Assembly (NCBI GenBank): GCA_001917995.1
Contig: MNFB01000046.1
Location: 1-39,797 of the forward strand
Reading direction: 5' to 3'
DNA: 39,797 bases
From: Thaumarchaeota archaeon 13_1_40CM_4_38_7
GTDB lineage: Archaea > Thermoproteota > Nitrososphaeria > Nitrososphaerales > Nitrosopumilaceae
Made by a program: the position numbers and the translations under genes. The notes under the pieces were generated by a model that searched no databases, was not told where the DNA came from, and saw only the letters and a program-made list of their open reading frames with translations. Each line of letters begins with the position of its first letter. Within the stretch, counting starts at the first letter, position 1. Below are positions 19,059 to 30,407 of the stretch, piece by piece.

Positions 19059-19739
19059 CTACCACGGATATAGTCGTCTAAATGTTTCCTTGTCAGTTAC
19101 ACTAATTGCTTTAGTAGGGCATGTCTGAGCTGCATCAAGTATTTTTTCGGATGTAGCTCCTTGTTCATTTATTACTCGAGATTTAGGATTTACACGAACG
19201 TTTCTTTCTACTCTAAATACGGTCGGTACAATTGTCTCGCAACTACAGCAGGCGATACACTTGCTTTGGTCAACCTTGACTGATACCGGAACATCGCTTT
19301 TTGTTTCTATAATTGGTTCAGTGTCAACTTTGGCCTCCGCTCTTATCCGTTCATAATATTCCCAGAAGGTCTTTTCGTAATATTTCCAGAAATCTTGATA
19401 TGCATTTTCTGTTTGTTTAGTATATCTACTCCAATCTTCCTCTGCAGTCTGGTCAGATGGCCTTGCGCCCCAAGAATATTTCTTGGAGCCAAAATCATGT
19501 TTTTTCGTAGAGCTCTCATTGTAATTTCTATGTGATGAGCTGGTTTGGATGCTTTTCTTATATTCGGCCCTAAGGGCTTGATAAGCTTCCGTTATTACCT
19601 TGAATTTTTTACCATCTTGGTGTGAGTTGTTCTTGTCAGGATGGTATTGTAGCGCAAGTTTTCTGTATGCAGCCTTTACTTCTTTAATAGAGGCACCATC
19701 TGTAAGGCCAAGAACTTGATAGCATTGATAGTTATTCAA
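19059..19739 (-). CDS. DnaJ domain - ferredoxin fusion protein (DnaJ-Fer)
   Basis: A 226-residue fusion. Residues 1-~65 are a J-domain with the HPD motif at 33-35 (ALQYHPDKN) that stimulates DnaK ATPase. Residues ~66-150 are an aromatic and charged linker (SWGARPSDQTAEEDWSRY, FWKYYEKTFWEYYERI). Residues ~150-226 are a monocluster ferredoxin: SKCIACCSCETIVP gives C-x2-C-x2-C plus one extra Cys, and TCPTKAI supplies the fourth ligand, for one [4Fe-4S] cluster. The fusion could link chaperone recruitment to redox state or Fe-S delivery; this is inference. DnaJ-Fer proteins are known in Thaumarchaeota and plant plastids. It lies between ffh and pus10. Confidence 0.9.
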   Translation of the reverse strand: MNNYQCYQVLGLTDGASIKEVKAAYRKLALQYHPDKNNSHQDGKKFKVITEAYQALRAEYKKSIQTSSSHRNYNESSTKKHDFGSKKYSWGARPSDQTAEEDWSRYTKQTENAYQDFWKYYEKTFWEYYERIRAEAKVDTEPIIETKSDVPVSVKVDQSKCIACCSCETIVPTVFRVERNVRVNPKSRVINEQGATSEKILDAAQTCPTKAISVTDKETFRRLYPW

Positions 19740-21833: not shown

Positions 21834-21947
21834 TTAATTTTTTTCCAACGTTTTTACGCGTTTTAGGCAGTTCTCACAGAGTAAAATGTTATCTTTTGGT
21901 TTAATTTCCACGTTTGATGCCAAACAAACATGGCATAGTCCTTGCAC
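21834..21947 (-). CDS. 37-residue zinc-ribbon microprotein
   Basis: This gene is too short for ordinary ORF finding. It encodes MQGLCHVCLASNVEIKP followed by KDNILLCENCLKRVKTLEKN. Two C-x2-C knuckles spaced by 15 residues form a minimal zinc ribbon, and the rest is charged. The frame closes with TGA two codons upstream of the GTG, so GTG at 21947 is the only possible start. A TATA box lies 27 nt upstream (21971-21977). No function can be named; such single zinc ribbons often bind RNA, DNA or a partner protein. It lies between the Dph6 gene and the box C/D sRNA. Confidence 0.78.
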   Translation of the reverse strand: MQGLCHVCLASNVEIKPKDNILLCENCLKRVKTLEKN

Positions 21948-22011: not shown

Positions 22012-22077
22012 GGATGCTTCAACACTCATAATCCTCATCACAAATTCAGTTGGCTTTTCTTCTCATCATCAGCATCC
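22012..22077 (-). ncRNA. Box C/D sRNA guiding 2'-O-methylation, predicted target C34 of elongator tRNA-Met
   Basis: Read on the minus strand, the 66-nt element has all parts of an archaeal C/D guide RNA. A 7-bp terminal stem GGATGCT/AGCATCC (22071-22077 with 22012-22018) encloses box C ATGATGA (22063-22069), a 13-nt guide, box D' CTGA (22046-22049), a 4-nt spacer, box C' GTGATGA (22035-22041), a 12-nt guide, and box D TTGA (22019-22022, one base off CTGA). The D guide GGATTATGAGTG complements ACTCATAATCC, which reads as an anticodon arm (stem GGA/TCC, loop CTCATAA) with anticodon CAT. The fifth base from box D faces C34. It lies 4 nt after the aIF5A stop; a TATA-like CTATTATAG inside aIF5A (~22100) could drive it. 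The D' guide target is unknown. Confidence 0.85.
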
Positions 22078-22081
22078 GAAA

Positions 22082-22489
22082 TTAGCTTTTGATTCGGACT
22101 ATAATAGTTCTATCCATTACTTTCCAGTATTCTACATCCTGACCTTGGGCTACCTTATCCTTTATCTCATCTTCAATTTGGAATACGTCAAATACCTCAA
22201 AGGTTTCAGAGTCCATTACCTGAACTATTGCATCAGTCTTTGATATCACTGACCCAACTCTCTTGTCTATGAGTGGAACTTGTATCTGGGCACTAACAGG
22301 TGATACATGTGGATATTTTTTCTTGTCAAATATTCCAACTGCTACTATTCTGGCCTTTGCTGCCCCGTGTTTGCCTGGCTTGCTTGTATCATACTCTACT
22401 ATTTTGCATGGTTCGCCATTTGGACTATCCACAGGAAGTAAAATGTAAGAACCAATTTTTAATGAACCAAGCTCAGCAGGCTTACTCAT
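22082..22489 (-). CDS. eif5a: Translation initiation factor 5A (aIF5A)
   Basis: A 135-residue aIF5A from the ATG at 22489 (the frame extends two codons to a TTG at 22495). TSKPGKHGAAKARIVAVGIF is the hypusination loop; Lys40 in KPGKHG is the residue modified to deoxyhypusine/hypusine. The C-terminal OB-fold (GSVISKTDAIVQVMDSETF) is present. The factor relieves ribosome stalling at proline-rich and other difficult sequences. A strong TATA box GTTATATAC is centred 27 nt upstream of the ATG, fixing the start. A box C/D sRNA begins 4 nt after the stop on the same strand and may be processed from, or initiated within, this transcript. Confidence 0.95.
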   Translation of the reverse strand: MSKPAELGSLKIGSYILLPVDSPNGEPCKIVEYDTSKPGKHGAAKARIVAVGIFDKKKYPHVSPVSAQIQVPLIDKRVGSVISKTDAIVQVMDSETFEVFDVFQIEDEIKDKVAQGQDVEYWKVMDRTIIVRIKS

Positions 22490-22512
22490 CACCAAAACAG
22501 AATTTGGAATAG

Positions 22513-23335: not shown

Positions 23336-23458
23336 CCCACGCTAGCTCAGCCTGGTAGAGCTTCCGGCTGTAGTGGTTGGCCACAGGCTAACTGATATCA
23401 GCCTATCAGGCTTACAGATACCGGAGTGTCGCAGGTTCAACTCCTGCGCGTGGGACCA
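23336..23458 (+). tRNA. tRNA-Tyr (GTA), intron-containing, CCA encoded
   Basis: Acceptor stem CCCACGC (23336-23342) pairs with GCGTGGG (23448-23454); the discriminator is A at 23455 and CCA follows in the genome. The D arm is GCTC/GAGC. The anticodon stem TCCGG (23363-23367) pairs with CCGGA (23421-23425). The loop reads CTGTAG before an intron and A after it, giving anticodon GTA at 23370-23372. The T arm is GCAGG-TTCAACT-CCTGC. The C1-G72 pair and A73 are archaeal tyrosine identity elements. A 46-nt intron interrupts the loop between positions 37 and 38. Confidence 0.95.
23374..23419 (+). other. tRNA-Tyr intron (canonical 37/38 position)
   Basis: Exon CTGT (positions 32-35) pairs with ACAG (23414-23417) of the intron. 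This leaves 3-nt bulges AGT on the 5' side and ATA on the 3' side, with cuts after the second base of each, as expected for the bulge-helix-bulge recognised by the archaeal splicing endonuclease. The intron also contains an internal AGGCT/AGCCT hairpin. The inner flanking helix is weak. Confidence 0.8.
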
Positions 23459-30307: not shown

Positions 30308-30407
30308 GCAGAGGTATCGAAGCCCGGCCAACCGAGAAGGACTCAAGATCATGGCATGGGAAATCCTTTCCCTCAGGGGTTCGGGGGTTCAAATCCCTCC
30401 CTCTGCA
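30308..30407 (+). tRNA. tRNA-Leu (CAA), intron-containing
   Basis: Acceptor GCAGAGG (30308-30314) pairs with CCTCTGC (30400-30406); the discriminator is A at 30407 and no CCA is encoded. The anticodon stem AAGGA (30337-30341) pairs with TCCTT (30364-30368). The loop is CTCAAG, then an intron, then A, giving anticodon CAA at 30344-30346. A class II variable arm (CCC-TCA-GGG) precedes the T arm GGGGG-TTCAAAT-CCCTC, which contains one G-U pair. The long variable arm, A73 and the CAA anticodon identify leucine. Confidence 0.93.
30348..30362 (+). other. tRNA-Leu intron, 15 nt, position 37/38
   Basis: Exon CTCA pairs with intron TGGG (C-G, U-G, C-G, A-U) as a 4-bp central helix. It is flanked by 3-nt bulges AGA and AAA, with cuts after the second base of each. 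The intron is close to the minimum that can form this helix, so the inner stem is essentially absent (relaxed hBH form). Confidence 0.8.

Follow-up and report, generated by a model that had tools for sequence, protein, structure and literature searches.

A Conserved Box C/D sRNA in Nitrosotalea with Predicted Targets in Elongator tRNA-Met and 23S rRNA

Guided 2'-O-methylation of the wobble base C34 of elongator tRNA-Met was described as established in other archaea and in humans by an earlier note on the DNA analyzed here, and the literature agrees with it. In Haloferax volcanii, the guide is the RNA sR-tMet (Rfam RF02163; Joardar et al., 2011, as summarized in PMC6601510; predicted in PMC2584109). 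Human SNORD97 / SCARNA97 guide the methylation of the same base (PMC6601510), and C/D sRNAs of Pyrococcus are guides for the wobble positions of tRNA-Leu, tRNA-Met, and tRNA-Trp (reviewed in PMC7994747). The modified base is the partner of the guide nucleotide five positions upstream of the box (PMC7089733), and Cm34 is thought to prevent mispairing of C34 with A (PMC7668247). In the set of papers searched, no description of thaumarchaeal C/D sRNAs was found.

The DNA analyzed here, referred to as the window, is a stretch of 39,797 nucleotides (contig MNFB01000046.1) from Thaumarchaeota archaeon 13_1_40CM_4_38_7. The assembly carrying it comprises 1.38 Mb and is 80% complete. The window very probably encodes a 66-nt archaeal box C/D RNA with two targets, namely C34 of tRNA-Met for the D guide and position ~C2510 of the 23S rRNA for the D' guide.

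Architecture and conservation of the sRNA

The features of the locus are listed in Table 1. Read on the minus strand from 22077 to 22012, the sRNA has the order GGATGCT-G-ATGATGA-GAAGAAAAGCCAA-CTGA-ATTT-GTGATGA-GGATTATGAGTG-TTGA-AGCATCC. The earlier note had placed a C/D sRNA here, with TTGA instead of CTGA as box D, and the 7-bp stem and all four boxes were indeed found in these positions. The length of the stem, the total length, and the guides of 13 and 12 nt agree with the sizes typical of archaeal C/D sRNAs. A regular-expression scan for this architecture gave one match in the window; 300 Markov-resampled windows having the same dinucleotide make-up gave no match. In the Rfam search, the sRNA had no match at the gathering threshold. 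The best matches at relaxed thresholds were sR41 (E = 2e-6) and snoPyro_CD (E = 1e-4), which agree with the sRNA in strand and span.

Table 1. Features of the sRNA locus and of the adjoining aIF5A gene, in window coordinates
Feature	Position	Strand	Remarks
Box C/D sRNA gene, stem to stem	22012..22077	-	66 nt; conserved in 37/37 congeners
Terminal stem, 5' half GGATGCT	22071..22077	-	Pairs with 22012-22018
Box C ATGATGA	22063..22069	-	No change across 37 genomes
D' guide GAAGAAAAGCCAA	22050..22062	-	13 nt; core GAAAAGCC complements 23S rRNA GGCUUUUC
Box D' CTGA	22046..22049	-	
D'-C' spacer ATTT	22042..22045	-	4 nt; unconserved, column identity 0.35-0.62
Box C' GTGATGA	22035..22041	-	
D guide GGATTATGAGTG	22023..22034	-	12 nt; complements elongator tRNA-Met anticodon loop, C34 at D+5
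Box D TTGA, non-consensus	22019..22022	-	
Terminal stem, 3' half AGCATCC	22012..22018	-	
aIF5A gene	22082..22495	-	Directly upstream of sRNA; Pfam IF5A-like_N E = 5e-18
TATA-like CTATTATAG, likely promoter	22099..22107	-	~22-30 nt upstream of sRNA, within aIF5A 3' end

Boxes C, D', and C' agree with the consensus RUGAUGA / CUGA. The TTGA sequence of box D would be expected to replace one G-C pair of the kink-turn by G.U. Homologous sRNAs were divided into those of the family of the window, Nitrosopumilaceae (f1), and those of a second family of the order (f8). Of the 110 f1-type loci, 104 have either TTGA or ATGA as box D, and TTGA is a family-wide variant. CTGA was found in 13 of the 17 f8-type loci.

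In the genus Candidatus Nitrosotalea, 37 genomes were searched and each of them contains the sRNA; the chromosome of Ca. Nitrosotalea devanaterra (LN890280) carries the same RNA. The boxes and both guides, whose conservation the earlier note had proposed as a check, are kept in all 37 congeners and across the family. In the genus alignment, the D' guide and the core of the D guide (GATTATGAGT) have a column identity of about 99%, and the downstream intergenic region has 0.64. All 7 stem pairs are kept in the 21 aligned sequences (21/21), with double-sided changes in three pairs; compensatory changes were seen, for example, in genomes G031 and G010.

At the level of the order, the pattern formed by box C' and the D guide was found in 220 of 400 genomes, and the reversed control pattern in 2. 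Matches to the pattern at five loci (L133, L159, L162, L169, and L186) were rejected as chance ones, the other boxes being absent. A homologue with both guides was found across Nitrosopumilaceae and in the second family. In genome G054 (locus L096), the homologue has a very similar D' guide and a wholly different D guide (AAAATATAGGCGAG).

Predicted targets of the two guides

The elongator tRNA-Met gene of the same genome (L024, G000:C24:34432-34524) contains ACTCATAATC. The gene reads GTGCCAG-TCCACATAAAGGGTAAT-ACTCATAATCTGG, and its middle 17 nt represent an intron in the anticodon stem, as judged by comparison with intronless f8 genes. The D guide forms 10 Watson-Crick pairs with ACTCATAATC and two G.U pairs with flanking U residues, and C34 is paired with the guide base five positions ahead of box D. 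Both features are in line with the duplex of 8-10 bp and the target base at position five expected for such guides. The proposal of the earlier note, a guide for wobble C34 of elongator tRNA-Met with this base exactly five from box D, is thus supported by a real tRNA gene as well as by conservation of the sRNA. Some details of the proposal have to be revised. The target is ACTCATAATCT and not ACTCATAATCC, and the intron adjoins it in the gene. In the proposed anticodon arm, the CTCATAA loop and the CAT anticodon stand, but the GGA/TCC stem is wrong, since the gene reads ACTCATAATCTGG with a short intron in the anticodon stem; the spliced arm is CCAGA-CTCATAA-TCTGG.

Among the 28 tRNA loci of the genome, tRNA-Met forms the best duplex with the guide (-14.6 kcal/mol vs. 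-12.0 for tRNA-Ile CAU). These two tRNAs are separated by base 39, which is U in Met and C in Ile2. The rRNA was rejected as a target of the D guide, having only matches with G.U pairs or mismatches. The anticodon loop of tRNA-Met is invariant and therefore allows no covariation test for this guide.

Most congeners have the 12-nt guide AGATTATGAGTA, every base of which complements the unspliced TACTCATAATCT. This suggests that the sRNA may act on tRNA-Met before splicing. Additionally, the -1 base of the D guide is A in 84 of the 110 f1-type loci and fits the last U of the intron. The f8 tRNAs have no intron in this place, and G, C, and A all occur at -1 in the f8 RNAs. This base was therefore rejected as proof of pre-tRNA targeting and is taken as suggestive. 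Most of the f8 elongator tRNA-Met genes read are intronless at the anticodon-stem place. In some other Nitrosopumilaceae (L192-L196 and L206), the insertion in the anticodon stem of tRNA-Met is longer than in Nitrosotalea and perhaps contains two introns.

For the D' guide, to which the earlier note had assigned no target, a site in 23S rRNA is newly predicted here. No rRNA genes were found in the genome of the window, a metagenome-assembled one, so the match was made on congeners. The core of the D' guide pairs with GAUGUCGGCUUUUCC of the 23S rRNA, at CGG(C)UUUUCC, and the guide base five positions ahead of box D' is paired with the C ending CGGC, which is the second C in GUCGGC. With the conserved GAUGUCGGCU as the anchor, this predicted target is at about C2510 in E. 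coli numbering. The site lies beside the peptidyl transferase centre.

The D' guide and the rRNA were found to change together. The commonest D' guide of f1 outside the genus is GGAAAAGCCGT. In f1, the guide sequence GGAAAAGCC (GAAAAGCC in Nitrosotalea) goes with CGGCTTTTCC in the rRNA. The f8 RNAs have the D' guide GGAAGAGCCG (guide sequence GGAAGAGCC), and their rRNA reads CGGCTCTTCC. Thus, a base of the rRNA differs between f1 and f8 and the guide differs to match, which makes one compensating change. The D' guide of Nitrosotalea has lost two edge pairs and forms a duplex of 8 bp (-12.3 vs. -17.0 kcal/mol in other genera).

According to the proposed mechanism, L7Ae, Nop5, and fibrillarin (aFib) would assemble on the two kink-turns of the sRNA. 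The D guide would pair with the anticodon loop of elongator tRNA-Met, possibly with the intron still in place, and fibrillarin would methylate the ribose of C34. The D' guide would pair with 23S rRNA near the peptidyl transferase centre and direct 2'-O-methylation of ~C2510. Genes for fibrillarin (E = 5e-87) and Nop5 (E = 2e-67) were found in the same genome, adjoining each other.

A real C/D sRNA might also be selected mainly for the 23S site, the match to tRNA being secondary or decaying. Covariation of the D' guide with rRNA would fit this explanation, as would G054, where the D' guide is retained though the D guide has completely changed, and the drift of the spacing between guide and box D in a Nitrosotalea subclade. 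Such an explanation is nevertheless improbable, because pairs were lost in Nitrosotalea by the D' guide while the D guide is near-invariant there, and because two families share the D guide.

The drift mentioned concerns 12 of the 37 congeners. In total, C34 is located at D+5 in 112 of 127 distinct loci. In the subclade, it lies at 6 from box D in ten genomes (L034, L048, L050, L053, L055, L056, L089, L091, L092, and L095) or at 4 in two (L039 and L043), and the D'-C' spacers are longer in some of the spacing-shifted loci. By the +5 rule, the target would then be U33 or A35, and exact targeting of C34 is thus uncertain in these 12 congeners. Additionally, the D guides of genomes G024, G027, and G030 (L048, L055, and L095) contain GGTTATGAGT.

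The last group bears on the question of whether another CAU tRNA, i.e., tRNA-Ile2 or the initiator, could be the target instead of elongator tRNA-Met. The CTCATAA loop is common to all CAU tRNAs, and the guide CGGTTATGAGT of G024 and G030 (L048 and L095) forms a more stable duplex with tRNA-Ile CAU than with elongator tRNA-Met (-17.8 and -18.1 vs. about -13 kcal/mol); the guide of G027, TGGTTATGAGT, shares the GG change, the energies given covering G024 and G030. For the window and 33 further congeners, base 39 favours Met, with the Met vs. Ile2 energies of -14.6 vs. -12.0 for the guide of the window and -14.9 vs. -9.1 for the commonest guide of the genus, and C34 of tRNA-Ile2 is the agmatidine site (PMC7668247). 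Another CAU tRNA as the target is therefore very improbable.

A broader interpretation can be put forward tentatively, as possible but on balance doubtful. In ammonia-oxidising archaea, one RNA would link the decoding base of tRNA-Met to a methylation adjacent to the peptidyl transferase centre, and in the subclade its guide would have slipped, in a few species toward tRNA-Ile CAU. Either the +5 rule would be flexible there, or the target would have moved to U33, A35, or another tRNA. The spacings found in Nitrosotalea provide a natural series for testing the +5 rule.

Genomic neighbourhood and putative promoter

The sRNA starts 4 nt past the stop codon of the aIF5A gene and shares its strand. 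This linkage is kept in many relatives, and some loci retain an aIF5A-like tail without the aIF5A gene. Of the 28 loci without upstream aIF5A, 20 have TAAAATA at exactly -28 relative to the stem, and this fixed position indicates that the sRNA probably has its own promoter. In the window, the promoter would be the TATA-like CTATTATAG inside the end of the aIF5A gene. That the locus is a chance or relic sequence of the aIF5A 3' region and not an expressed gene, as the result of Rfam at the gathering threshold could imply, is hardly credible in view of the invariant boxes, the compensated stem, the conservation in loci without upstream aIF5A, and the promoter-like element at a fixed distance.

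Some other features were observed in the window. A 37-codon frame (21834-21947, minus strand; VQGLCHVCLASNVEIKPKDNILLCENCLKRVKTLEKN) is located between the sRNA and the diphthamide synthase gene; it contains two CxxC pairs and likely encodes a small zinc-ribbon protein. The gene at 19059-19739 on the minus strand encodes a DnaJ domain fused to a ferredoxin-type 4Fe-4S domain (Pfam) and is adjoined by the SRP54 and Pus10 genes. Two intron-containing tRNA genes, probably for Tyr and Leu (Rfam model), were found on the plus strand at 23336-23455 and 30308-30407. ARAGORN with bacterial settings missed intron-containing tRNAs, including these two.

Comparison with described guide RNAs

According to the summary in PMC6601510, sR-tMet of H. 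volcanii is likewise a box C/D RNA guiding Cm34 in an intron-containing elongator pre-tRNA-Met. The predicted job of the window sRNA is the same, but its score of 19.5 bits against the gathering cut-off of 50 places it outside the RF02163 family. The tRNA-Met intron of H. volcanii is located at the canonical place; the one found here interrupts the anticodon stem. The predicted 23S target of the second guide is a further difference. The C/D sRNAs of Pyrococcus are also archaeal guides for nucleotide 34, tRNA-Met included, but belong to hyperthermophilic euryarchaea, and Thaumarchaeota are absent from the text of the review (PMC7994747). SNORD97 / SCARNA97 share the C34 target but are a eukaryotic snoRNA/scaRNA, and homology is not implied. 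The Rfam families sR41 (RF01126) and snoPyro_CD (RF00095) have the same box layout but different guides, and the scores are below the gathering thresholds (32 vs. 54 and 29 vs. 45 bits, respectively).

Thus, guided Cm34 was already known; what is added here is the predicted site in 23S rRNA, the conserved linkage to aIF5A, and the drift in the distance between guide and box D. A guide RNA, and with it Cm34 of tRNA-Met by implication, can be assigned to the globally abundant ammonia-oxidising archaea. One RNA seemingly serves both rRNA and tRNA in these organisms, in contrast to the tRNA guides of Pyrobaculum, which have an orphan second guide (PMC7994747).
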